Of a DNA stretch of 64,000 nt, positions 7,699 through 62,725 are shown in pieces. The DNA is taken from assembly GCA_022575985.1 (NCBI GenBank), contig JAKSXM010000263.1, forward strand, positions 5,622,001 to 5,686,000, read 5' to 3'. Within the stretch, counting starts at the first letter, position 1; each line of letters begins with the position of its first letter. The notes beneath the pieces are model-generated. The model was not told where the DNA came from. It saw only the letters and a list, made by a program, of their open reading frames with translations, and made no database searches. The translations under genes were made by a program, and so were the position numbers. This stretch comes from Anagrus nilaparvatae. Lineage: Eukaryota > Arthropoda > Insecta > Hymenoptera > Mymaridae.

Positions 7699-8600
7699 AT
7701 GGCGACGGCACAAGAAATGCAGGAAGAAATTAACAGATTAAAGGCGGCAGGAAACATCCTCGAGGTACAATTGAACACTTTTTAAAGCTTTGCAAGCCCC
7801 AAATGTTAGTTTTGTATCTGCAATTGGCTCAATAGCTGAATTTAAGGTAAATCAGAATTGGGCATTTTATCAAAAGTGGCTAGAGCAGTATTTTGTTACT
7901 AATAATATAAGCGAAGAAAGAAAAGTAGCCACTCTTATAACTTTAATTGGGGAGGAGGCATATCAAATTTTGACAGACTTGTGTGATCCGGAAGATCCGG
8001 AAAATCAAACATATCAACAGTTATGCGAAATAATGACGCAACAGTTCGCCCCAAAAGTGTCTGTTTTCAAGGAAAGGCGGGAATTTTATACGATGACTCA
8101 AGGAGAGCAAGAAAGTGTAAATTTATTTTATGCGCGCCTAAAGAAGAAAGCAGTGCTCTGTAAATTCGAAAATAGATTGGATGACGCAATCAAAGATAAA
8201 TTTGTGACAGGATTGTCACCTGGGTTAATTCTGGACAGGGTGTGCGAGGAGAACCATACACCATCATTAGAAGCCATATTGGAATTAGCAAGGAAGAAGG
8301 AGGCGGCGCTTACGATGAAGCAAAGTGTCGCAGCAGTACACAAAGTCAACGCTTATGTAAAAGGATGCGCTTCAAGAGGAAAGAGTCAAGAAGTAAAGGT
8401 GCTGACACGAAAACGAATGCAAAGAGCGCGAATACAGATAAAAAAACTTGCAGACATTGCGGTGGATCTGGACATAATTTTGCTAAATGCAAATATTAGG
8501 ATTACGTAAGCAAGGCATGCAAAGTAAAGGGACATTTAATTAAGGTTTGTCAGAATAAGAATAATAATAATTACAAAGCTAAAGAGAAACGCATTATGTA
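7699..8600 (+). pseudogene. gypsy gag, two frameshifts
   Basis: An ATG at 7699 opens a short frame that stops at 7785. The capsid-like part continues one base shifted (7790-8509). The nucleocapsid part lies back in the first frame (about 8242-8499) and shows a zinc knuckle, CRHCGGSGHNFAKC. A second degraded knuckle (CKVKGHLIKVC) follows a stop. The central part resembles the gag/capsid region of gypsy elements. The shifts mean that no intact Gag can be made from this copy. Confidence 0.8.
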
Positions 8601-8731
8601 AAAAATGAAGAAGAAGATGATTTTGAGCAGAAATATACAAATTTTATGGACATAAATAGCGTATCAAGCAATGACAGCGAAGGGGATAAACCATGGATGG
8701 TAGAAATCAAGGTCAATAAAAAATTCTAGAA

Positions 8732-9028
8732 GTGGAAATAGATTCTGGCGCAGCAAGGTCAATAATGCCAAGGGAGGTATTCGATAAATTTTTTGAAAAG
8801 GATTACAAGCTTAAGGCAAGTTCAGTAAGGTTAAAATTATATGATAATACAATACTCAAACCAGATGACCAGTTCGAGGTAAAGGTAACCTACAAATCGA
8901 AAACAGTTTATGGTATTTTTGTTGTAGTAAAAAATGGAGCCAGGGTATTGCTAGGTCGAGATTTAATGAACAGTCTAGGCTTTGGTATAGAAAATATAAA
9001 TTTCATAGACATAGGAGATGCTGATTGA
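8732..9028 (+). pseudogene. gypsy aspartic protease domain
   Basis: About 98 residues with the retroviral-type active-site motif DSGA near the start and a GRDLM stretch near the end. The frame ends at a TGA (9026-9028) where the related downstream frame continues in phase. The stop therefore looks like a single nonsense change inside a longer pol frame. Confidence 0.75.
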
Positions 9029-9034
9029 AGCAAT

Positions 9035-10507
9035 TTGGTAAATGAATTTAAAATATTATTTGATGGATCACTATGCTTCGAGCGGGAGCAGGTAGTTTTG
9101 AAACTTAGACCAGAAGCAAAGCCAGTGTTCTATAAGTCAAGACCTATTCCATTTTCACTAAAAGAAAAAGTCAGTAAGCAGATTGCAGCTTTAGTTAAAA
9201 AAGGTATCTTAGAGAAAGTAGATTATAGCAGCTGGGGCACGCCTTTGGTCCCAATTATCAAACCAAATGGGGATATAAGAATCTGCGGTGACTATAAAAT
9301 AACCATAAATAGATTTCATAATATTAAAAAACGACCTTTCCGAGCATTTTTAATATTATGAAATTTATTACTCTCCTTATTATCGAGCGATATTGGATTT
9401 TCTTAAAATTCATTATAAAACCATAAATAGAGTATTCGAAGATATACAAGAACCGCTTCCTAGAATAGAAGAAATTTTTGTAGAATTGAGTAAAGGCGAG
9501 CACTTTACTAAATTAGATTTATCTTGGGCTTATAATCAACTGCCAGTTACACCAGAGACAGCTAAGATGTTAGCTTTGAGTACACATGAAGGCACATATA
9601 TTGTAAAAAGGTTAACGTTTGGTCCAAAAACAGCGGTAGCAGAATTTCAGAAGAGAATTAAGTCAGTTTTGCAAGGAGCAAAAGGTACAGCATATTTTCT
9701 AGATGACATTATTGGCACAGAAAAAAGTAAGGAACAACACTTAGAAAATTTAAAAGAAGTTTTTAGAAGGCTAGAAGCAGCAGGTTTAAGGTTAAATTTA
9801 GAAAAGTGTAGTTTCTTTCAAGAAGAAGTCAATTATTTGGGCCATAAAATAAACAAAGATGGACTATCCAAGGATATCAATAAAGTAAATGCTATAGTGG
9901 AACTGCCACAACCACAAAATTTTACTGAAGTTAAAGCATTTGCTGGGATGGTAATTTTTATCTTAAATTTATACCACGTCTGGCAGAATTATTATCACCT
10001 TTATATAAGATTTTGCAACAACCGGAATTTGTGTGGACTCCAGAATGTGAAGAAAATTTTAAGAAAATTAAGCAAGAAATAGCCAAAGATGAAAATTTGG
10101 TTCACTATAACCAAAACTTACCTGTTAAGCTTATTACAGATGCATCAAACGTGGGTATTGGAGCTGTATTACTACACGTGATGCCTGATAAATCAGAAAG
10201 ACCAATGGCTTGGTCTTCAAGGACGCTAAGGGCTGCAGAGAAAAATTTTGCGGTAATTCATAAGGAAGCATTAGCTATATATCGGGGCGTTGGTAAATTT
10301 TATCAATTTACCATATGCTCAGATCATAAACCTCTATCGGCGTTGTTTGGTGAAAAGAGAGGAATTCCAGTTATGGCAGCTGGCAGGCTCCAGCGATGGG
10401 CTTTATTCTTAAGTGGCTTTAATTACAAATTAGAATACATCAAAGGCAAAAATAATATAGCAGATGGCGTATCAAGATTACGGTTAAATGTAAAACAAGC
10501 AGAATAA
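9035..10507 (+). pseudogene. gypsy reverse transcriptase and RNase H
   Basis: The frame 9035-9361 holds the reverse transcriptase start (LRPEAKPVF...WGTPLVPI). The palm domain continues in another frame at 9393-10082 with the catalytic YFLDD box (a YxDD-type motif, from about 9694). RNase H is at 10013-10507 in a third frame, with the TDAS motif. A 118 bp insertion and a later shift split the domains. The 10013-10082 overlap reflects the frame change. The parts are clearly recognisable but not expressible as one protein. Confidence 0.9.
9302..9431 (+). repeat. 118 bp insertion with direct repeats inside the RT
   Basis: ACCATAAATAGA occurs at 9302-9313 and again at 9420-9431, where the coding sequence resumes. 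The inserted sequence carries an 18 bp inverted repeat (about 9313-9330 with 9346-9364). It may be a tiny foldback insertion or a slippage duplication. It shifts the frame. Confidence 0.65.
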
Positions 10508-10708
10508 CAGAAAGATGAAGATTATTTATATTTTATATGTGAAGATAAAATTCCTATAGATTTAGAAAAAATAAAAAAAGTTACAAGAACTGATGCAAAA
10601 CTTAGTAAAGTCTATTTATATACAAGAGAAGGTTGGCCAAGAAATATAGAAGAAAATTTAAAACCTTTTATCCAGTGAAAGGATGATTTCAGCATCGACA
10701 AAAATATA

Positions 10709-11837
10709 TTGATGTGGGGTTATCGAGTAATCATTCCAAAGCAGTTCAGAGTTACATTGTTAGAAGATATCCATGGAGCTCACTTTCGTATGGCAAAAAT
10801 GAAGGCAATTGAAAGACAATATTTTTGGTGGCCTAACCTAGACAAGGATATAGAAAATTTTGTAAGTAGCTGTGATTTATGTGGTAAGTTTGCAAAAAGT
10901 CCAAAGAAATCAGTATTAAAAAAATATCCAGAACCAAAGAGGCCTTTTGAACGAGTTCATATAGATTTCTTAGGTCCGAATGAATAAAGTATATTTTGTA
11001 CTAATAGATGCATACTACAGATGGCGTGTAGTATATGAAATGTCAAGTATTAGGTCACAAGCTACTATAGAAAAATTAAGAGAAATTTTTAGCAGGTTTG
11101 GTTTGCCTAAAGTAATCATTTCAGATAATGGACTTCTTTTATCAGAAGAGTTCAATACATTTTGTGCAAATAATGGGATAGAACATAAAAAATCAGCACC
11201 GTATCATCCTGAAACAAATGGACTAGCAGAGAATATGGTAGCAAGTTTTAAAAATAGTTTAATGAAGATTTTAGCTGATCCAAGAAACAAAGGTATAAAA
11301 ATCTGTAATTTGATAAATAGATTTTTAGCTTCATATAGAAATGCACCGCATTCAACAACAGGAGAAGCTCCAGTAAAAAGATTGTTGGGAAGAGAAGTAA
11401 GAACAAGACTATCTCTCTTATTACAAGATAAAGTGGATAAAATAAGAGAAAACCAAGTTAAGTATTTTAAAGGTACCCGTACTGTAGATTTTGAAGAAGG
11501 AGAGAGAGTACGGATGAGAGATTACAAAAATCCAGCAAAACCAGGATGGAAAACAGTAGTAGTTACAAGTAAATTAGGTGGATTAACATATATGTGTAAA
11601 GGTGACCAAGATAATACAGAAATTAAAAGACATGCGGATCAACTGGTAAAAAAAGGTGAATTCTACACGCAAGAGGCGGAGGAGTTAGTAGTACATAGAG
11701 ATGAAGAAAAAGAAATAAATCAAGGTAAAAAGAATGAAATGGCACCAGTATTCATCGATGAAGAAAAAGGTACATCTAATGATCAAGAGATAGTAGTATA
11801 TATAGAAAAAGAAGCTCGACAGAAGTTGAACCGATAA
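10709..11837 (+). pseudogene. gypsy integrase
   Basis: The N-terminal zinc domain (HGAHF...CDLC, H-H-C-C spacing) is in 10709-10987. The catalytic core follows in 10980-11837, one base shifted, with D in LIDAYYRW, D in ISDNG and E in NGLAEN, the D,D-35-E pattern. A basic-acidic C-terminal tail follows. One frameshift at about 10980 separates the two parts. All three catalytic acids are kept. Confidence 0.88.
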
Positions 11838-19844: not shown

Positions 19845-21204
19845 ATGGCAAATATTCTGCAAATTGACAATTATTTGTCAAGTTCTTCCAGTGATGAAGG
19901 TACCGATGAAGAAGAACGAGCATTATATGTTTTTGTGAATGTTATTCTAAATAATAATAATCGTGTTGGGAGAGGTTTAAGGAGGATTCCACGCATAGTA
20001 ACCTATGTGGAAACGGTTATTGTTGATTATAATTTGGAGGAATTCCGAAAGACTTTTAGGTGAGGAATTATTTTTATTATTCTAACATTAAGCAAAGAGA
20101 ATAATACCGAAAAATGTAATTTTAGGTTAAGACGACCAACATTTGATTACTTACTATTTTTAATTGGACCTGATTTGCAGCGAGTGGAGAATATTGGAAA
20201 TGCAATTGTGTGTCCAAAAAAACAATTGTATATTTTTTTAATGTATCTAGGTACCAAAATGAGTTACAAGTAAATCTTATTAAATCTTATTTTTATAATT
20301 CCAGCGAAATAAGGTACTTATAATATATTATTATACTTTCAGATCAATTGCTAATCTTTTTGGTGTTGGTGAGTCTACAGCATGGGAAATTGTTTTTCGG
20401 TGTGTTGCAGCGATATATCGTTACAGAGATCATTTTATAAGATGGCCTACCCGAGATGAAATACGTATAATAGCTGCAAATTTTCGTCGAAGGACAGGTT
20501 TTCCAAATGTTGGGGGCTTAGTAGATGGGACTGAAATAGAAATACCAAAACCGACAGAAAACTCAGCATTCTATTTTAACAGAAAAAAATTATGTTCACT
20601 AAAATTACAGGTATAAAATTTTTATTTACAAATAAAATTTAATTAAACAAAGTAATTAATAATTTATTTTTAGGTTGTTTGTAATCATCGGTTAGAATTC
20701 ACCAATTGTTTTGCTAGTTTCCCAGGTGGTGCTCATGATGCTAGAGCTTTTAAATATTCTGGCTTACAAGAGATGTCCACTGAAGAATTTTTTAATGGGG
20801 ATTTTCATCTTCTTGTAGATTCGGCTTATACTTTACAAAACCATGTATTGACACCTTATAAGGATAATGGACATTTGTCTCCAGAGAAAACAAATTTTAA
20901 TAAAAAACTCTGCAGTACCAGAATTTATGTTGAGTGTTCGATTGGTTTACTAAAGATGCGATGGCGAAGAATATTAGATTTTTGTCACATTAATAAAACA
21001 GAAATTATTCCATTCTATATTACTGCCTGTTGTATCTTACACAATATTTGCCTAAAACGAGATGAGGAATTTGAATATCCAATTTTCATTAGAGACAATG
21101 GCTTGGTAAATGTAGGTCCTTCACTACCATCTCGTAGAACCAGAATCCTAGGTTCTCAAAAAAGGAATATGCTACGAGAATATTTTGCCATGATGCAAAT
21201 ATAA
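19845..21204 (+). CDS. PIF/Harbinger transposase (DDE_Tnp_4 type), 4 exons
   Basis: Exons are 19845-20059, 20126-20269, 20343-20610 and 20674-21204, joined by GT-AG introns of 66, 73 and 63 bp. They give an uninterrupted 385-residue protein. The N-terminal part is acidic and serine-rich (SSSSSDEGTDEEE), followed by a helix-turn-helix-like region (KKQLYIFLMYLGT...SIANLFGVGESTAW) used for DNA binding in this family. The nuclease core has D181 (GLVDGTEI), D258 (LLVDSAYT) and E296 (YVECSIGL), a plausible D-D-E triad, so the enzyme may be active. I chose the ATG at 19845 because the in-frame codon at 19740 lies within the inverted repeat. It faces its Myb-like partner gene tail to tail. Confidence 0.9.
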
Positions 21205-30289: not shown

Positions 30290-31085
30290 CTATTAACCGT
30301 ACCCGTGCTAACAGGTGTAAAATACTTAGCGTGGTTATTTAGAATAGAATTGTATTTAGAAAAGTTGGGATCGATCGAAGCAATCAATAAACCTCAATCG
30401 GAAATCGATACGTTAACGGGCGAAGCCCTAATGGCCTTCAAGGCAAAAGACGCCAGTACCAGATGCGTCATCGTACAATGTGTGACAGATAAGCATTGAC
30501 TATCTAAGGGAATCAAGAACGGCAAAGGAAATGATGCAGGCACTAAAGTCAGTATCTGAAAGAAAGAGCGCACTTTCGAAAATTTACGTAATGAGAAAGC
30601 TCTTAAAAATGAAATTTAAAGATGGCGAAAGTTTACAAGAGCATTTTGTAAAAGTAGAAGTGCTTCTAAGGGAACTAGAGTCCCTAAAAAAGTCAAAACT
30701 AGGGGACTCTGAAAAGGTATTTTTTCTCTTACTATCGATGCCTGAGTCATATGACGGTATAATAACGGCAATTGAAACGTTAAGCGACGACAAGCTAACG
30801 TTCAGTTTCGTAAAGGAGCGTCTGCTAGATGCCGAACTAAACCAGCTGGAAAATAGCAAAGAGCAAAAATTAGAAAATGCAAAAGAAAGCTCTGTTTCAG
30901 CAACAAGAGAAAATAAATGTTATGACCAATAAATGTTAGACCCTCGCCATTACAAGTACTACTGTCCCAGGTTACAAGGGAGAAATGAAAGAAGTGAAAG
31001 AAGTGAAACAACATTTCGAGGAAGAGGGAGAGACAGATATCAGCGTGGTGGAAGACACGTCAGAGGGAGAAGTGTACTTTTCTCC
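30290..31085 (+). pseudogene. copia-type gag, broken
   Basis: The frame at 30305-30499 holds the N-terminal gag part (YLAWLFRIELYLEK). After a small deletion it continues at 30531-30932 with the conserved stretch YDGIITAIETLS found in copia-type Gag. A degraded zinc knuckle (HYKYYC) and an Arg/Gly-rich tail run to about 31085 past a stop. There is no protease, integrase or reverse transcriptase, so the element was cut off after gag. Confidence 0.82.
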
Positions 31086-34370: not shown

Positions 34371-36910
34371 ATGAGCATATCACGATAGTTTACGTGATTA
34401 CCTCAGCACTCATAACTCTTATCATGTTTTTGGTATAGCAGAAACAAGATTTGGTCCTGAAATCGATGATAACATCATTAATGTACCGGGATATAGTGTA
34501 ATAAGAAAAGATAGGAACACTCAAGGTGGTGGTATCCTATTATATATTCGTGATAATTTAAAAGCGAAAATTCTCTGTTCCTCAAATACCACGCAACTTG
34601 GTAAGCCACTTAAGATTGAGTACCTTTTCTGTTCGGTATGGGAAGGCAATTCTACTCCTACTCTAATTGCCCTTGTTTATCGTCCTCCTGATGTCTCCAT
34701 CAGGCGTGATGATAACCTAGAGAAACTTTTACATTCTCACCGCTCTGATTTCAGCCATAAGATAGTAATGGGTGACTGGAACGCCAACTTACTCGCTCCT
34801 CATAAATCTGACACTCGTTACTTAAATGATCTTATGAGTGATTTGTCATTAAAACTAGTAAACACAGGTCCAACTCATCATAACTCTGACAGTGATACAT
34901 GAATAGACTCCATTTTTGTTGACAACTGTGATAGTATTCAATGTTCTTCTCGTCTCTTACCAACATTCCCGAGTAGGCATGAAATAATATCTGTCACTAT
35001 TGACTTATTTTACCCTAATCCTTTTGACAGCTCTTACTCCTATAAGCCTCTTAATACCATAACTTCTCATGACATAAATTCAAACTTAGGTAAATTAGAC
35101 TGGTCACCCTATTCAACAAATGAAGATGCTTTTAGTATTGAACATGGTCTTAGTACCCTGACAAATAACTTACAGGATGTCATTAATACACTTGCTCCTA
35201 GTAAAACACTAAATATCCGTAAATCCAATTATCCGTGGATTGATACTGATCTTCGTTTATTACGTTCAAAACGAGACGCCACAAGAAGACGTTATGCCAG
35301 GACAGGTTCTCGGGGGCTTCTTAATGAATTCTTAACTTTGGCTAATAAATTTGAGGAGAAATCTGAGGCAGCTCGTCATGCTTATATGCACAATCGTATA
35401 TGCAGTGCTCTTGATTTAAAGAAAAATTTTTGGAAGGAGATGAGAATGTTGGGGTTGACTCCTAAGGTAAATGATGCTCTTCATGGCTTTTTACCTGAAG
35501 AGCTCAATGTATATTTCAGTTACATCTCAATATCCCCCACAGAAGATCTTTCTATTGCTTCTAATATAGTAGATAACGCTCCTCTAGACGGATTTGTTTT
35601 TAAGAAAGTATCAGTAAACGATGTGATACTAGCAGTCTCACATTTCAAGTCACAAGCTAAGGGTGATGATGGCCTCCCTCAAAGCATTATAGCCAAAGCT
35701 TTACCAACTATAGCTCCTCACTTAACGCTACTCTTCAATGCATCATTATTACAGGGAATATTTCCCCCAGCCTGGAAAAAATCATGTAAAACGGCAATAA
35801 AAAAAGTTCAAGTGCCTTCATCAACATCTGATTTTCGTCCTGTGGCATTACTATGTTTATTGTCGAAGGTCCTTGAGAAGCTTGCTCATGATCAGATGGT
35901 CCTCTTTTTAAATAAATCTAAAATATTAGATCAGTTTCAGACGGGATTTCGCAAGTTTCATAGTACCCAAACCGCGTTGTTAAAACTAACGGATGACATC
36001 AGAAAATAAGTTGGCTACTCTGCTGTTGCAATTTGACTTCTCAAAGGCCTTCGACAACGTTTCTCCCTCAAAGTTGCTAAAAAAGCTAAAGGACATTGGT
36101 TTTTCGAAGCAATTCCTTCAGTGGATATTGACATACATCACCGGTCGTTCCATGTGCGTAACATCTAAGGCAACTACATCCTCTTCTCGTGAAGTCAATA
36201 TTGGAGTACCTCAAGGGTCGGTGCTCGGTCCCCTTCTTTTTTGTATTTACATGAATGACCTAAAGGATCACCTGGGTGATGATGGCACTTTTAGGTTGCT
36301 GTATGCTGACGACCTTCAAATATATGTCCAGGTCCCTGTCAATGAGATTGATAATGGTATTTCTCGCTTGTCCGAATCTGCTAAAAAAGTTTCAGAGTGG
36401 GCACAGCATAACTGCTTGTCCCTTAACACCAAAAAGACGCAGGCAATTGTCTTTGGTTCTTCTAACACCATAAAGAAATTCAATGCCCTAAATATTTCCA
36501 ACATTCAGGTTAACAGTGTTGGTGACAAGGTTCCGTTTGTTGATGTTATAATTAGTCTAGGGGTAAAACTTGATAGTACTCTTTCATGGAGGCCTCAAGT
36601 ACTTCAAGTAACCAAAAACGTCAATAAAGTAATTTATTTTCTTAGAAATATCCGGCCTTGAACTTCAATCACTCTACGCAAGCGACTGGTCGAATCCCTT
36701 GTGCTCCCTCACCTTGACTATTGCAAAGTAGTATACTCTGATGTCTCCAATGAGTTGGGTATTCTACTGCAGAGACTAGCAAACTCTGGAATTAGATACA
36801 CCCATGGCATTGGGTGCAATGAGCATATCACTGCTTTCCGTAGAAAACTGCATTGGATGAGTAATTCAACTCGTACTGACTATTTCGCCTCTCTTATAAT
36901 GTATAGGATA
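34371..36910 (+). pseudogene. LINE ORF2: endonuclease plus reverse transcriptase
   Basis: One frame from 34371 to 36009 holds the APE-type endonuclease (GIAETR, GGGILLYIR, VYRPP, MGDWNAN) and the start of the reverse transcriptase (KGDDGLP, FRPVALL, FQTGFR). A stop at 34900-34902 interrupts it. A frameshift near 36000 moves to the frame of 35993-36661, which carries QFDFSKAFD, VPQGSVLGPLLF and the catalytic YADD (from about 36303). A TGA at 36659 and an in-phase continuation follow, to LIMYRI at 36910. The copy is inactive but young enough to align by eye. Confidence 0.88.
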
Positions 36911-37061: not shown

Positions 37062-38822
37062 TTAGTTTAAATTATTCTTGTCATTTTGTAAATGTTGATC
37101 ATTTGTGCCATCAGAAAATCTTTGATTATTTCTATTATTATTAAAGTTACGATTTTCAAACGAGTTATTTTCGTATCGATTCTGATTTTGATAATTTCTG
37201 TTTGGTGAATAATTTCTTTGGTTATTATAATTTGAATTATTAAAATTGCGTTGTTCATATCTCATAGGTCTAAAATTATTATTATTACGTCCATTATTAT
37301 TACGATTAAAATTATTTCTATTGAAATCATTATTACGTACAATATTAGCATTAAATCGGGGTGTCTCGTTTATATTTTCATATTGTCGAGAAAAATCTCT
37401 GTTTGCATTAAAATTCCTAAAATTATTGTATCTAAAAGTATTAAAGTTCCTATTATTTGGAAAACCAGGCACGTAATATTTTGCTCTATAATATGGATTA
37501 GATAAATTCATATTCATATTTCGCGTATAATTATCATTCCATCCGGGATTGCCTTGTAAATTATTTTGTTCGTTGTTTATGATTTGTAAAGCTTCGAGAA
37601 GTTGCGGCAAACGTAAACATTTGTTTGTCTCATGCTGTGTTGAATTACAAAGCGAACATGGTGCTATATTTATTACTTTAGTAGGACAATTTTTAGAATC
37701 ATGTAATAATGATTTACAAATACTGCAATTTACTTTTGCTGCCATAGCCGCTCTTACCATATATTCTTTTAGTTCCTCTTCATCTTCATCAGAGTCATAA
37801 TTATTATTTTTCTTGTAAACATAAGATTTTTTTAGTCTATCGTAAGCCATTCCATCTTGGCCCTTAACAGCTTGATCTCGTCCTTCTAATTTTATAGCAA
37901 AATTAACTGCTTCTGCTAACGTTTTTGGATTTCTAGCCAAAATTCTATGTTCTGGTGGATCTCGAAGACCATACAAGAAACAATCCAATGCTTCCTTCTT
38001 AATTTTTTCTTTACATCTTTGTTTTTCGTGGTTGTCTAAATCAGTAGAAGCTTCATAAATAATCATCAGTTTTTGCTCTAGCATTTGTACTCTAATTGCA
38101 TAATCTTCTACTGGTTCATTTTTATATTGAAATATGCTTCTTAGTTTAGATTTTACCGTATCCCCATCTTGCATAGCCCCAAATTGTAATTTAAGAGCTT
38201 TTATAAAATCTGCGAGAGAGTCATAGCTAAGGACTGAACCTCCAAAGATTCGACCTGCCTTACCTTTTAATTTTCTTGAAAGAATTTGTAGAATGTGTTG
38301 TTCACTCTCAGGACCATATGATAATAATAAGTTTTCCAAGGATTTACAAAACGCGTAAAGATTATGATGCTGACCCTCATAGTCAGAAATAAAATTAATC
38401 GCATCTTTAAAGGATAATAAATTACTTCTCATTCTTAGATTTTTCCTAACTGGGGTTCTTAAATCAAGATCATTTAAATCAAATGCTGCCAGATAATCCT
38501 CCCAACTTTTCTTTAATCCTGCAACCCCACATTCATCCTTTTTTGTATGCTCTTCAATATTATTATGTAAAATATCATCATCAAACTGCCAATTTTTCTT
38601 ATCTAAATTTAATTTTGGCTTACGTAAAATATTATTTTTTTGCCTTGTCCCGTTAGTGGCATTTTGAGTTATTTGTTGAAATGTATTATCAGATATAACA
38701 ATATGGTCAGCATTTGTATAATCGGGATTAAGTAGATTCTTTGCGGTTGTTAAAACCGTATCAGGGCTAGTATCATCACCAAATATTTCTGGTTGTTCCC
38801 TCCAATCCTTACTATTTGCCAT
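37062..38822 (-). CDS. Intact gypsy-type Gag, 586 aa
   Basis: A single open frame with an ATG. Residues about 130-330 form the capsid-like region (LLSFKDAINFISDYEGQ, FQYKNEPVEDYAIRVQMLEQ, LYGLRDPPEH). Two CCHC-type knuckles follow, CSICKSLLHDSKNC and CSLCNSTQHETNKC. The last 130 residues are extremely Asn/Arg/Phe-rich. Gag would package element RNA into particles. The frame has no stops or shifts although all of pol is absent, so it may be kept by use in trans or may simply be young. It ends about 150 bp before the element's 3' edge. Confidence 0.82.
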   Translation of the reverse strand: MANSKDWREQPEIFGDDTSPDTVLTTAKNLLNPDYTNADHIVISDNTFQQITQNATNGTRQKNNILRKPKLNLDKKNWQFDDDILHNNIEEHTKKDECGVAGLKKSWEDYLAAFDLNDLDLRTPVRKNLRMRSNLLSFKDAINFISDYEGQHHNLYAFCKSLENLLLSYGPESEQHILQILSRKLKGKAGRIFGGSVLSYDSLADFIKALKLQFGAMQDGDTVKSKLRSIFQYKNEPVEDYAIRVQMLEQKLMIIYEASTDLDNHEKQRCKEKIKKEALDCFLYGLRDPPEHRILARNPKTLAEAVNFAIKLEGRDQAVKGQDGMAYDRLKKSYVYKKNNNYDSDEDEEELKEYMVRAAMAAKVNCSICKSLLHDSKNCPTKVINIAPCSLCNSTQHETNKCLRLPQLLEALQIINNEQNNLQGNPGWNDNYTRNMNMNLSNPYYRAKYYVPGFPNNRNFNTFRYNNFRNFNANRDFSRQYENINETPRFNANIVRNNDFNRNNFNRNNNGRNNNNFRPMRYEQRNFNNSNYNNQRNYSPNRNYQNQNRYENNSFENRNFNNNRNNQRFSDGTNDQHLQNDKNNLN

Positions 38823-39193
38823 GATTTATTTATTGAATTATGATTCAAATTTATTATGTAAAATTTTATAAATATATTTTTGATAAATAATTTTCGTAAT
38901 CTTTGTATAGAAATATTTTGTATGCTTCCCTTCAAGTAACTATTATTTATATATTTTTTTATTCAAATATTAATATTTTAGTTGATTTATATAATTTTAA
39001 TCCCTGGTAAAAATTTTTTTTTTATAAATGATATTTTCTATATTATCTCAAAAGTACTTTCAATATATACTTCTATTAGTAATGTGTAATAACATGTAAT
39101 AGTAAATCAGTGTAGAGAAATAAAAATATAAAATAATTTTATACTTATCTCTTACACAGTGATTACTACGAAGCTCCGGATATCCATTAAAGC

Positions 39194-54630: not shown

Positions 54631-55971
54631 GAAAAAATAAAGAAATAAAGAATACAGTTTTTAATTTTTATATAAATTTTTTATTAACAAATTTTATGTA
54701 CAATTTTTGTTAATAGGCTGGGTACTGTAGAAGACGCGACTTTTGAGGTTATGTTTGTTTCACTTCTTAAGTTGGTACGAAAAAAGCGCGAAAAGACTAC
54801 TGCGGAATAAGGTATGGTTTCCGGCCCCAGCATATTTTTCGCATTTTTTTGGCTCAATTTGATGATATATGATAAAAAATAAGATTGCGAAGGTCGGCAC
54901 CCCCCCACCCCCCCTGCGTTACCCCTGGGGGGTTGAAACGTGTTTTTCACTAAAAATTAATATCTCCGGGCCGAATCATCCGATTGGGACGTGGTTGGTA
55001 TCAAAATTTTTGTTTTGAAAAAATACACCAAAAAAAAATTTTTTTTTTTTATTTTTGAACTCATTTTGAGGTTCAAAACTTCGAAAAACCTCATTTTTGG
55101 CTTTTTTGACGGTCTAAAAATTGAGATATCTCAGGATAGAGGAAAAACTCCTTTTTTTCGCGCTCAGGGGAACTTTGTCTAAGACTACTTTTCAAAATTC
55201 CGTCGGAAAAATGGCAACTTTTACGGTGCGTTAATCGCAATTGACGATTATGTAAAAAAATCGTGTTTTATTTTTTGCTTGTTTTATCATACCATCTAAT
55301 ATTTTATTTTAAATCTAAAATTAGCTTTTTTATGGTCTTTTTTATGTTTTTCTCATAATTTTTTCATAAAAAAACGATATTTCACCTATACTCTACCAAA
55401 GAACTTCATTTATTTCATGAAATCTCTTTTAATTTTCGCAATAATCAATAGGATGATCATCTTTTTGAAAAAAAAAAAAATTGAAGGCACACCTTACTGA
55501 TACCTTTCTTTGTGTATCTTAGACCATATAAAGTGATAAATAACCTAGGTATAGAAAAATTTTTGTTCGCCGCATAGTTTTTTTTGAGTTGACAGCCTCA
55601 GAATCACGTTTTTTCAATATGTATTTAAAAAAACCAATTTTGGAATTTTTTTGTTATAAATTAAAATTATTTTTTAAATGATGGATTTATGTTTTTTCAC
55701 TTTTCTTACATTGACAATTCACTAAAAAGAGTATATTTAAGACCAAAGAATACAAATTTTCAATTTTCAACGTCTTGGAGCAGTTTAAATGTTAGATATT
55801 GGGTTTTTTAATAATTCATCAACTGGGGATTTTTCTAACAGATTAAAATGATGTTAAAAACTGGACTAAAAACATACTTCGTTTTAATTTTTCCTGTACA
55901 ATCTAAATTCACTATTCATTTTAACATTTAACGACGCTTTATAAGAGAAAAATTCATTTTTTTAGTTTTTA

Positions 55972-56209
55972 CACGGAGAAAAATAACTGTTAAAAATAAC
56001 CAAAATTGCTGGTTATGTTTACATTATAAAGTTTTGTTATTTTATGTTCAAATATTTTGTAAATATAACCATGTTTATAGTTAGAATTACAATATTCTGA
56101 CTTCAAATTTGTAAAATTTACAAATTTTTTTTGTAATTAAAACTAACCCCGTTTTACTAAAATTAACCTTGTAAAATATACAAAATATTTTTCTCCGAGT
56201 AGGGCCCCA
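55972..56209. mobile_element. Tc1/mariner-type MITE at the palindrome centre
   Basis: The ends CACGGAGAAAAATA and TATTTTTCTCCGAG are flanked by TA on each side (55970-55971, 56210-56211). The related sequence at about 50700-50730 lacks it and reads straight through one TA. It is 238 bp and non-coding. Confidence 0.88.
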
Positions 56210-57405
56210 ATTTTCAGGGAGCCAATGTTTAAAGTTTCGCATTTTTTAAGAAAAAATTTTCTGAATAATATTTGCAATTTTTACTTATATTTTTTTTCCT
56301 CAGGAATTCGATGAAACCTTGATAAAATCATTTGAATCTGCTAGGAAAATCCCAAGAGTATGAATTTAAAAAACCCCAATATTTACCTTTTGAGCTGCTT
56401 CAAGAAGTTGAAAACTGAAAATTTGTGATTTTTGGTCATGTATATAAAGAAAAGGGAGTATACTCTTTTTAGTAAATTGTGAATGCAAAATAAGTGAAAA
56501 AACATAAATCCATCATTTAGAATAATTTTAATTTATAAAAATATAATTCAGAAATCGGTTTTTTTTAAACATCGAAAAAACGTGATTTTGAGTCTTCCAA
56601 CTAAAGAAAAAAAATATAGGGCAAGCAAAATATTTACTGTTTCTCACTTCTTCGTCACTTTCTATGGTCTAAGGAACCCAAAGAAATGTAACAGGAAGGT
56701 GTGCGTTTAATTTTGTTCTTTAAAAAGTTGATCATCCTAAGCGCAATCTTTCTGCGGATTTTCCATATAATAGTTAAAAATGAGGTTTTATGTTCAAATA
56801 ATTATATATTTCAATTTGTTAATTAATTAAATTTATCGTTATTTATGAACTAATTTAATACATATTTTAAGAATAAATAACTTTCTTCAAAATAATTATT
56901 TATAATAAAAGTGTTAGTATTTTAATTATTATTAATAAGGAAAATAGATATTATTTGCCAAAATTAAAAGAGATTTCATGAAATAAATGAAGTCCTTTGG
57001 TAGAGTATAGGTGAAATATCGTTTTTTTATGAAAAAATTATGAGAAAAACATAAAAAAGACCATAAAAAAGCTAATTTTAGATTTAAAATAAAATATTAG
57101 ATGGTATGATAAAACAAGCAAAAAATAAAACACGATTTTTTTACATAATCGTCAATTGCGAGTGACGCACCGTAAAAGTTGCCATTTTTCCGACGGAATT
57201 TTGAAAAGTAGTCTTAGACAAAGTTCCCCTGAGCGCGAAAAAAAGGAGTTTTTCCTCTATCCTGAGATTTCTCAATTTTTAGACCGTCAAAAAAGCCAAA
57301 AATGAGGTTTTTCAAAGTTTTGAACCTCAAAATGAGTTCAAAAATAAAAAAAAAAATTTTTTTTTGGTGTATTTTTTCAAAACAAAAATTTTGATACCAA
57401 CCACG

Positions 57406-57441
57406 CACAGTGGTACGAGAGTATAGCAATATGGGACATGG
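57406..57441 (+). repeat. Left Transib terminal inverted repeat (RSS-like)
   Basis: The heptamer CACAGTG, the same as the V(D)J signal heptamer consensus, is followed by 23 bases and then ACATGGAAA, which sits where a 23-spacer signal has its A-rich nonamer. Confidence 0.85.
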
Positions 57442-57479
57442 AAAAAAAATTTTTAGTTAGGGAAATTAAATTATGTTTA

Positions 57480-58215
57480 TATATGTTTTTGATATCGCTA
57501 ATCACGAATCTGAAGTCAGATTTAATAATTTTTTTGAATAATTGCCAAATTTTTGCTAATTAATTTTTCTTTATACCGAAAATTGGGAAATCCAAAAAAA
57601 AATTTATTTAAATGATTAATATTTGGTGTTTATATATTTTTGAGGTCGCTAATCACGAATCTGATGTCAGATTTAAATATTTTTTTGAAAAATCGCAATA
57701 TTTTCGATCATTAAATTTTTTTATAATAAAAAATGAAAAATTACAAAAAATTTTAGCTAGATGAATTTTATTTGTTATTAATATATTTTTCAGATCGTTA
57801 ATCACAAATCTAAAGTCAGATTCCTTTAAAGTATTGCAAAAATTTCGCTGATTAAATTTTTTTTTATACTGAAAAATGAAAACAAGCGAAGCAAAAAATT
57901 TTTTATTTAGATGAATTTTACTTCGTGTTTATAAGTTTTTGATGTCGCTAATCACGAATCTGAAGTCAGATTTAATTATTTCTTTTAAGAATTGCAACAT
58001 TTTTTCTGATTAAACTTCCTTTATACCGAAAAATGGAAAGCTAGGAGAATTTTATTCGTTTTTAATGTTTTTGAGTTTGCTAATCATTAACTTTAAATAA
58101 GATTTAAACATTTCTTTGAAGAATTGTAAAGTTTTAGCAAATTAAATTTTATTTATATCAAAAAATGGCAAATGTCAGAAAAATTTTTAGTTATTTGAAT
58201 TTTATTTGGTATTAA
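57480..58215 (+). repeat. 150 bp subterminal tandem repeats of Transib
   Basis: TCGCTAATCACGAATCTGA or variants recur at about 57494, 57645, 57794, 57944 and 58076, so there are five units of about 150 bp, the last one shorter and more diverged. They lie between the left end and the transposase stop and might act as subterminal binding sites; that is an inference. Confidence 0.88.
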
Positions 58216-58461
58216 TATTACCATCGACATAGAAGATTATCTGTAATATATTGAAAATATCGTGATTTTTGCAGTATTTTCTATACTATTGGGTATTAAA
58301 TAGGAAACCAAAACAATATTCTAGTAAAAAATATGTATATTAATTTTTTTTATAAATTTTTTTTAGTGCAATTTAATAAGTACATATAGATTGTATTATA
58401 CAATTTTTCTATTAAAATTTTTTTTGAATTTATTAAATATAAGTTTTTTAGGTCCATATTA

Positions 58462-61400
58462 TTAAAAATCTTCATTTTCATAATCATGTATAATATCACT
58501 TTCTGGTTCTGATTCAAGCATTTCTATTTCATCCATAACTTCCTCTACTTCTTCCATGACTTCCTCCATTTCAGGAATTTCTGGAGCTTTTAGCATTGCT
58601 CTTGCCTCAGAACTAAAAGGTCTTAAAGGTTTTTTGTATTTATACCGCATACTGGCAATGAATGGATCAGAATTAGCAAGAAGCCGACAAAATAAGTCAT
58701 TCATTGTCTTTTTACGATCACATTTTCGGGTGTAAAGTAGACGAAATTGTCTAACATATTTATTTGTTGATTCTGCTGCCTCTTCAGATAACTGTCCAAT
58801 TGGTAAATGTGCGTGTTTAATGATTTCAGCTCCATGTAGCAGCACTTTATGAACTGTAGGTGGAATATTATACCATGGATACTTTTCTCTAAATAATTGA
58901 GCAGTTTCTATACCATACTGTTTATATTTCTCATGGTCAATAATGTGTCCACTTGACAAAGTCTCCAAAATCACGTGAAACCTTTTTATTAGATCTAGGT
59001 TCACACCAGTTATTTCTGCAGAAATTTCTTTATTGTTGAAAAACATTCGCGCTGTGTTACCGTCATTTGTATTCCCAGCTATTTGCTTGGGTTGATCAAC
59101 CCTTAAGTTTAATTTATCTTTAAACAAAGATTGTATATACAATTTTTGTTGTTTAACGATATCTTGTGTACCATCATTTTTGCGTGCTTGAGGCTGGCAT
59201 ATAGATAATTTAGTAGATAAACTAATCAAACATTCAAAACAACGTATCCAGGCATGTAGTGACGAGATACCGTACCTGAGGTTATCATTACTTATCGGCG
59301 TTATCAATGTTTTGTCAACGTCACTCAAGTCCTTATCCCTTAAACTACATATGTAACATTCTTTGGTGTAAATTGTATTTGTAATTGCATTAATTGATTT
59401 AACATCATACATAGTAGGCATTAATTGATAGCATACTTTTATATTTTTAAGTAAAATATTAAAAGTATGAGATTCTAAATTGGAAATTTGGTTTTCTAAG
59501 TTTACCTTCTCTTCTATTATATATTCAGTAGTTTCTTTGGCGAAACTAATACTAATAGGTCGGCAATACATCGGCGATGATGGTTTGTCGTTTGTCCATA
59601 AAATTTTACCGAGCTTACCATTTTGGTTGATTGTTACTAGTTGTAAAGGTACCATTGATGAAACATACACACTTGAATCATCAACTGAGTGTCCTTTTTC
59701 ATTAATAAACTTCTGTTTATAGTTACTTTGGCTTGAACTACCATCAGATCCATATTTGAAATGCAGCATAAGATTAATGCATTCATCGCAATTTAATTGA
59801 TCAATCACTTTATCCAAATATTTGCAGAGTCTCTCTGCAGTATGATTACATATAGACTGAAGTGGAACTTGGGCTCTATAACCTTCGACGGAAACATTTT
59901 CGGGGTAACAAGCTTTTTTAGCTTCTAAAACTTTATTATATGGTGGATATCCTTCATTGTACATATTTACAAATGTATTTCGAGCTTGTTGGTACGTATT
60001 TCTAGATAATTTACAGTCTAAAATATGCGCAATAGCTTTTTCTGGAGACATAGATCCAGTGCAGGCGTGTTTTAAATAACTTTCGCGGTATGCTTTCGCA
60101 ATATTTAGTGGACTACAAGCGATATCCTTCAATAATAAGTAAGCATCCTTATTCCCTTGCTGCTTAAACTTATAAGCAGCAGAATATGCATCCATCTCAG
60201 GACTAGAATCAGATTCTCTCAGCTCCTTGGTAAGGCGATTTTGACTTCTGCTACTGAGTTCGCAAAAATTGCTTTGCTTCTGGTATTTTGTATCGTTCTT
60301 TATTTTTTTTGAAGGTGGAGTCTCTAAACGCATATCATCATAGTTGAAACAATCCGAAGGATTTGGAAAAGTAATTGTATTTTGTTCTAGCCACTTTTTA
60401 TTTTTTTTCAAAAATTTATCACGATTCCTACAACTGCTTTTCCAGCGTTGATTCAGAGCATTTAATAATGTTCTAACAGTTGTTTTTTTAAAATTTTCTG
60501 GAATCGTATAATCTTTGCATAAAAGAGTTGTAAACTTTTTCTCCAAAACTTCACAAACTTTCACATATCCATCATACAGGTGTTTTTTCAATAACCAAAA
60601 TATATCTAAATATCGAAATGTCAAAGGATGTACAGAATCACTTAAAAAGATGTTTTCTAAAACAAATATATATTCATTAAAAATTGAAGGAAAAAAAATA
60701 TTTATAAATAATTACTAAAAAATTTAAATTAAATTAATTTACATTAAATTTGAGAAATTTATTATTATTTAAACTACTTTTGTTTAAAATATTTATTATG
60801 TAAACAATTTATAAATAAAAATATTGTGCTTCAACAATGAAATACAGTAATATATAAATAAATAATTTGAATTGAGCAGTTAAAAAAACACATAAATAAC
60901 TAACAATAAGTCAAATTTATTTTAAAACATTTAATTGTTACAAAGTATATAAACAATTAAAAATTTGTTAACAATTAATTTTTTTAAATTTTAAATCAGA
61001 AACTTGAATGCAAGAGGTTGAAATTCATATAAACAGTATTTTTACGTTAAATTTTAAAAATTTAACTTTAAGCAACTAATTGTTTAAAAAATTTATAAAC
61101 AATTAAAAATTTGTTAAAAAATAATTTTTTTAAATTTTAAAGCAGAAATTTGAATTCAGGAGGTTGAAACTCAAATAAATAGTATTTTTATTTTAAATTT
61201 GACAAATTTATTATTTAAACAACTTTTGTTTAAACAATTTATTATTTAAACAATTTATAAATAAAAATATTATGCTTTAACAATGAAGTATAGTAATTCA
61301 TAAATAAATAATTTGAATTCAGCAGTTATAAAAACACATATAAAATAATTGAGTTAAATTTAACTTTAAGCAACTAATTGTTCAAAAAATTTATAAACAA

Positions 61401-62248
61401 TAAAAAAATTGTTAATAATTAATTTTTTTAAATTTTAAAGCAGAAATTTGAATTCAGGAGGTTGAAATTCAAATAAATAGTACTTTTATGTTAAATTTGA
61501 CAAATTTATTATTTAAACAACTTTTGTTTAAACAATTTATTATTTAAACAATTTATAAATAAAAATACTATGCTTTAACAATAAAATACATTATTTCATA
61601 AATAAATAATTTGAATTCAGCAGTCAAAAAAATACATATAAAAGAATTGAGTTAAATTTAACTTCAAGCAACTAATTGTTTAAAAATTGTTTAAACAATT
61701 AAAATTTGTTAAAAATTAATTTTTTTAAATTTTAAATCAAAAATTTGCTTTTAGGTGGTTAAAATTCATATAAATAGTATTTTTCGTAAAATTTGAAGAA
61801 TGTATTATTTAAACAATTTTTTGTTTAAACAATCCATTATCTAAACAATTTATTGTTTAAAAGATTTATTTTTTAACAGTTTATTAGTTTATAAGTAAAA
61901 TATTCAGATTGAGCAGGTAAAAAAATTACCAATTTTTCAATTCTTAGAGAATGCACTATTTTGAACTCGATTTTATTAGTTTATTTAGCCATAAAATCTA
62001 AAGGCGCAAATGGTCGCAAAAAAAATTTATTTCTCTGAGTAGCTAAATACCTTGACTTTCATTTGAACGATAAAATTTTAGATAGCCGCAAATAGCAATA
62101 AATGTTTTTGTTAATATAAAAAATTTTTTTTTTAAATTTGAAAGTATTAACACTTATATTGTTACAATAATTAATAAACTAATTTAAAATATTATACATT
62201 TTTGATTAAAATTTTTTAAAATTACTTACCTTGTTCGAAAATATCCAT
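58462..62248 (-). CDS. Transib transposase, RAG1-core relative, 737 aa, 2 exons
   Basis: Exon 1 (62248-62230) encodes MDIFEQ and the first base of the next codon, and ends at a GTAAGT donor. After a 1.57 kb intron, exon 2 (60656-58462) continues in phase (ENIFLSDSVHPLTFRYL) to the stop. The predicted protein cuts and joins DNA at its CACAGTG ends. The catalytic triad matches the RAG1/Transib pattern: D311 (YGSDGSS), D424 (TMYDVKS) and E635 (LSEEAAESTNK). The zinc set is also kept: C440 and C443 (CYIC), H609 and H614 (HKVLLH, same five-residue spacing as RAG1 H937/H942). A long acidic tail (EEVMEEVEEVMDEIEM) closes it. There are no stops or shifts over 2.2 kb, so the enzyme may be functional. 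Without exon 1 the protein has no ATG near its start. Confidence 0.93.
60740..61900. repeat. ~300 bp tandem repeats in the Transib intron
   Basis: The unit contains AGCAGAAATTTGAATTCAGG, AGGTTGAAA and TTATTATTTAAACAA(C/T)TT. Strong copies start near 61140 and 61440, with diverged ones before and after. It is extremely AT-rich and is probably what enlarged the intron. Confidence 0.8.
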
Positions 62249-62483
62249 ATTTCAATATTTTAATCACTTTAATAAAAAAAAACTAATGATTTGTTAAAAA
62301 AAAGATTTAAAAATCTCATACTTACCGGAGATAATAATTTGTTATCTATGCCCCACTTTTACCTTAATAGATAAGCCCAACGGGTTATTTTAGACTTATC
62401 TAATTCAAATTCCTTTATCTCAATGTTTATTCTATCGAATGGTGCATCATTCAATTGATAAAAAAAATTTTTATTTTTTCCAC

Positions 62484-62519
62484 CATGTCCCATTTTTCCT
62501 GTACTCTCGTACCACTGTG
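62484..62519 (-). repeat. Right Transib terminal inverted repeat (RSS-like)
   Basis: The minus strand reads CACAGTG, then 24 bases, then ACATGGTGG. The first 18 bases are identical to the left end. Confidence 0.85.
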
Positions 62520-62725
62520 CCACGTCCCAATCGGATGATTCGGCCCGGAGATATTAATTTTTAGTGAAAAACACGTTTCAACCCCCCAGGGGTAACGCAG
62601 GGGGGGTGGGGGGGTGCCGACCCTCGGAATCTTATTTTTTATCATATATCATCAAATTGAGCCAAAAAAATGCGAAAAATATGCTGGGGCCGGAAACCAT
62701 ACCTTATTCCGCAGTAGTCTTTCAA

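Follow-up and report, generated by a model that had tools for sequence, protein, structure and literature searches.

A full-length, autonomous-looking Transib transposon with V(D)J-like ends and signs of recent movement in Anagrus nilaparvatae

Transib is a transposon family related to the core of RAG1. The window analysed here, a 64,000-nucleotide stretch of the Anagrus nilaparvatae genome (contig JAKSXM010000263.1, positions 5,622,001 to 5,686,000, forward strand), contains at 57406–62519 an element that a first-pass annotation had read as a complete and possibly active member of this family. This raises the question of whether the element has moved in the recent past and whether it can still do so. 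The results described below support the interpretation of 57406–62519 as a Transib related to RAG1, and we put the probability that it is a full-length, autonomous-looking Transib that moved recently in this genome at about 0.92.

Ends, sister copies and empty sites

The region 57406–62519 is a full-length Transib DNA transposon with a single gene on the minus strand and CCACG on either side. Its 18-bp terminal inverted repeats, both CACAGTGGTACGAGAGTA and both starting with the heptamer CACAGTG, lie at 57406–57423 (plus strand, the gene's 3′ side) and 62502–62519 (minus strand, the gene's 5′ side); they are identical, and the first-pass annotation had placed them correctly to the base. Direct reading of the sequence also confirmed the exact 5-bp duplication that it described, at 57401–57405 on the left and 62520–62524 on the right. 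In the whole genome (488.7 Mb in 393 contigs), the 18-bp end occurred seven times with up to one mismatch, as three pairs and one single end, whereas the same sequence written backwards did not occur. The end is therefore not a chance sequence.

As the annotation had suggested, we counted the near-identical copies and found two sister insertions, both full-length and both on contig C175, with 99.7–99.8% identity over the aligned bases. The three copies differ pairwise by 8, 13 and 14 mismatches, and the window copy is without 69 bp (68 + 1) of intron that are present in both others. All three share the unbroken frame, the catalytic and zinc residues and intact ends, and their target duplications are CCACG, CGACG and CTAGG.

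Paralogous empty sites, located elsewhere in the genome, were found for all three copies. The flanks of the window copy, joined with one 5-bp target, were found uninterrupted at 40 of 40 scored places with 99% identity (667 candidates), and the three of these sites that were read letter by letter contain one CCACG each. The joined flanks of copy L002 (C175:1708180–1713362) were likewise uninterrupted at 40 of 40 scored places (100%; 880 candidates). For copy L003, three of 16 matches were full length at 98%, two others were its own flanks and the rest were weaker. That two of the copies lie on the single contig C175 would fit a single insertion copied by segmental duplication or by misassembly. 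However, the 5-bp duplications differ among the copies, the 1-kb flanks of different copies share only a 37-bp match, and every joined flank pair is uninterrupted elsewhere in the genome. This explanation is already contradicted by these observations, and we consider it very improbable.

The sequences into which two of the copies inserted are themselves repetitive. The window copy resides in the right arm of an older repeat (54801–62713, edges approximate) that is present at many genomic places and whose inverted arms, 445 bp long or longer, match each other at 98%. A second repeat surrounds L002, the other of these two copies of the Transib; over 300 bp, all 40 of the scored places are 100% identical to it, and many of them form inverted pairs about 1.6 kb apart.

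The transposase and its relation to Transib and RAG1 proteins

The first-pass annotation had proposed a two-exon, 737-residue frame without stops, and splicing 62230 to 60656 in silico bore this out: joining 62248–62230 to 60656–58462 gave an unbroken sequence of 737 residues. On the minus strand, the predicted coding exon 1 (62230–62248) has 19 nt, encodes MDIFEQ plus one base and ends at the donor AAG/GTAAGT. It is followed by a putative intron of 1573 bp (60657–62229; GT...TTTTAG), in which tandem repeats of 146/298-bp units occupy 60912–61853. Exon 2 (58462–60656) encodes the remainder of the transposase, including the catalytic and zinc residues and the stop codon, within a stop-to-stop frame of 749 amino acids (58462–60711).

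We examined the splice model in six elements with an unbroken second exon (the window element, L020, L024, L025, L026 and L031), which represent four families. All six have a 19-nt exon that starts with ATGGA at element position 271–273 and ends in AAG/GT, and in all six, splicing it to the homologous acceptor yields 720–737 residues without a stop. The broken elements L027 and L029 have an identical exon 1 at position 272, and L023 has an exon 1 at the homologous place. Because the same 19-base first exon is found in four families, the predicted splicing of the window transposase gains backing from relatives in the same genome. Upstream of exon 1, nine aligned elements, including L020–L031, contain a second conserved donor-like block, TTATCT(C/T)(A/C)GGTAAGT or nearly so (TTATCTCCGGTAAGT at 62320–62334, minus strand, in the window element), which is perhaps an alternative or non-coding first exon.

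The spliced protein has D311, D424, E635, C440, C443, H609 and H614 at the positions assigned by the annotation, and its alignment to Transib transposases and RAG1 verified the proposed correspondence with the catalytic and zinc residues of RAG1, with the D/D/E columns and the RAG1-type C2/H2 zinc residues conserved. HzTransib, from Helicoverpa zea, was the best match and RAG1 the next, in both sequence and fold. A sequence search of the PDB gave E-values of 1.9e-93 for HzTransib and 3.8e-05 for BbRAG1L and found no other PDB sequence. By these comparisons the transposase is closest to the Transib transposases and not to RAG1 or RAG1L. The inverted ends starting with CAC, with a heptamer like that of the recombination signal sequence (RSS), and the GC-rich 5-bp duplication also place the element in Transib. 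ProtoRAG/RAGL elements, with a RAG2-like second gene, differ from it: the window protein is much nearer to Transib, and the element has no second long frame as a candidate for RAG2L, no other frame inside it exceeding 91 amino acids (no RAG2 profile search was made for short exons). We therefore rejected membership in the RAGL/ProtoRAG group.

Hztransib (structures 6PQN, 6PQR, 6PQX and 6PQY) likewise has a single RAG1-like DDE transposase; its D/D/E residues, given as D126/D225/E436 in PMC6941560, and its zinc residues align with those of the window protein, and the core fold matches in full. It is also reported to make a 5-bp duplication (PMC1852546), and its ends are described as resembling the RSS heptamer but not the nonamer (PMC8289069). 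In contrast, identity over the core is only about 36–38%, and Hztransib is given as 3518 bp with a deduced product of 489 amino acids (PMC1852546) as against 737 residues for the window protein, which has some 200 extra N-terminal residues absent from the solved HzTransib chain. The inferred intron also sets the window gene apart from Hztransib. Drosophila Transib1, described as 3,030 bp long, is comparable in its recent mobility, having spread through D. melanogaster in 2013–2016 according to PMC12230796.

The N-terminal region matched the RAG1 nonamer-binding domain (NBD) with 3.3 bits (independent E-value 210), which is not significant alone; an NBD equivalent has already been described for Transibs (PMC9435367). 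The same source describes a Transib Subgroup II in which the alpha11–alpha12 region is lost and the tail is of CTT2 type. In our alignment, GRP is present in the NBD-like region of 44 of 62 rows. The 18 rows without it comprise five of the window clade (the window element and P0001–P0004), 11 others and two without letters at that place; since 11 other rows are also without GRP, its absence is not special to the window clade. The N-terminal 205 residues, folded alone (predicted local distance difference test score 83), had no PDB match at E ≤ 0.001, a result from a predicted model that is no proof of a new fold.

Related families and the capacity for further movement

A genome search with protein P0009 gave at least 81 matches, a lower bound as 68 of 262 candidates were scored. 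At least nine unbroken frames of 723–751 residues cover most of the query; apart from the three copies of the window family, they are at C342:4635800, C213:6765801, C342:21684878, C196:16997553, C215:325195 and C180:34365. A tenth frame (C196:15956737) has 624 residues. The last three of the six loci constitute one family (L024–L026) with 97.4–98.9% identity and the duplications AACCG, CGCAC and CACCG. Eight elements have exact duplications, and of their 40 target bases 30 are G or C, compared with 27.7% in the window; L020, L023 and L031, for which both ends were found with unequal flanks, are outside this count. Subterminal tandem repeats beside the left end of the window element (57474–58168, units of about 130–150 bp) are matched at 65–73% by other Transib families, and fragments related to the element also occur on the 74-Mb contig C62.

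Between families, the ratio of nonsynonymous to synonymous divergence, calculated from computed differences with synonymous sites near saturation, is about 0.12–0.22. Such constraint on a long unbroken frame could also be expected of a domesticated RAG1-like host gene, whereas the inverted ends, the duplications and the three positions are those of a transposon. Because the three insertions are independent, domestication is already contradicted, and we find it barely credible.

By analogy with the Transib family, the 737-residue transposase would bind both ends, nick 5′ of CACAGTG and then form hairpins on the flanking DNA; the freed element would be inserted into a GC-rich 5-bp target, which would thereby be duplicated. 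Judging from the sequence, the window family is likely to be expressed and still able to move. A serious, if somewhat less likely, alternative is that the element moved recently and is now immobile, through host silencing or a missense change invisible to the alignment. The amino-acid differences K54N, D177Y and Q269K among the copies would agree with this, as would the number of full copies, only three, although all three are without stops and retain the catalytic and zinc residues and intact ends. According to PMC4411706, the copy number of autonomous Transibs is typically one or, at most, a few.

Several observations weigh against a recently mobile, autonomous Transib. The seven coding differences among the three copies comprise four silent and three amino-acid-changing ones, too few to reveal current selection. 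Changing differences outnumber silent ones within the L024–L026 family (6:3, 5:0 and 7:3), and constraint is therefore visible solely in the comparison of families, in which synonymous sites are nearly saturated. Besides the three full copies, the 18-bp end is known only from a decayed relative on contig C79, to which the seventh, single end belongs, and a genome search with up to one mismatch found no short non-autonomous derivative bounded by this sequence. Finally, the Pfam RAG1 score of 24.5 is just below the cut-off of 25. Even so, we retain the interpretation as a recently mobile, autonomous-looking Transib.

Active Transibs are known from the biochemistry of Hztransib (PMC6941560) and from the spread of Transib1 in D. 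melanogaster (PMC12230796). These, as well as RSS-like ends and the NBD-like region in Transibs, have all been published, and the window element adds a good further member to a type of transposon already known, without being new in principle. Its enzyme and ends resemble the machinery that rearranges antibody genes. Copies that look intact, moved recently and have consensus V(D)J heptamers at both ends will be handy for biochemistry and for tests of whether the inner block serves as a second recognition site, and several long unbroken families in one genome should be useful for studies of end specificity. A narrow literature search joining Transib and Chalcidoidea found no paper.

End geometry and other observations

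In the window element, an inner block, TGGGACATGG, is located 19 bp after the left heptamer (57432–57441, plus strand) and 20 bp after the right one (62483–62492, minus strand), and this 19/20-bp arrangement is present in all three copies of the family. Vertebrate RSSs differ: the ends of the window element have no 12/23 spacers and instead a TGGGACAT block 19/20 bp past the heptamer, and they are without a close match to the nonamer ACAAAAACC, the best nearby sequence having three of nine mismatches. Across nine elements, the canonical nonamer was matched at best with two to four of nine mismatches, in A-rich DNA within 60 bp of the ends, and was rejected.

The end pattern CACAGTGGNACRN{12,16}TGRGACA, built from ends already seen, had 44 matches in the genome, and its backwards control had none. 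Two of the five allowed lengths occur, 33 bp in 34 and 34 bp in 10 of the matches. The 44 ends are related by descent and represent conservation, not 44 independent events. In three of seven end types (L024, L020 and L029), the outer and the inner block both read TGGGACA, the inner one lying 21–22 bp, or about two helical turns, inward. The end types of the window element, L031, L027 and L028 are without such an exact repeat, the two blocks of the window family differing at two of seven bases; an exact match of seven bases within so short a distance can be due to chance. We consider it unlikely that the Transib families of this genome have bipartite ends of a fixed heptamer, 19/20 bp and TGRGACA, with the inner block read by an NBD-like region without GRP. 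If true, a recently mobile insect transposon would have an independent heptamer-spacer-second-motif system, which could serve to test the origin of V(D)J signals. Bipartite ends of Transibs may have been published before, because the legend to Figure 1g of PMC9435367 describes a spaced alignment of Transib ends that shows conserved elements; RAGL transposon ends are also described there as having two conserved elements.

In viral contigs, 24 stretches matched a search pattern and none was confirmed as a relative. At C196:21570162–21571455, two inverted Transib-type ends lie 1.29 kb apart, a possible short non-autonomous derivative.

Among the 120 matches listed for the mitochondrial COI of contig C18, the closest are hymenopteran entries, most of them chalcidoid, with at best 82% identity, and contig C62 gives a similar reading; the host is thus probably a chalcidoid wasp. 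The assembly also contains COI-like sequences beyond the wasp-like one, on contigs C146, which can be read as a complete COI with the invertebrate code, and C244 and C264, where the sequence is fragmented as though by introns; they are likely to be from contaminants or associated organisms. Elsewhere in the window, pieces of mobile elements are present at 7775–11837, 20674–21204, 30486–30932 and 34375–36661. They comprise gag, reverse transcriptase, RNase H and integrase of a long terminal repeat retrotransposon, part of a DDE_Tnp_4 transposase, a copia-type gag, and a reverse transcriptase with a weak upstream endonuclease match. At 37062–38825 on the minus strand, an open frame of 587 amino acids with an N-rich tail shows weak similarity to PNMA (E = 0.003, short of the curated cut-off).
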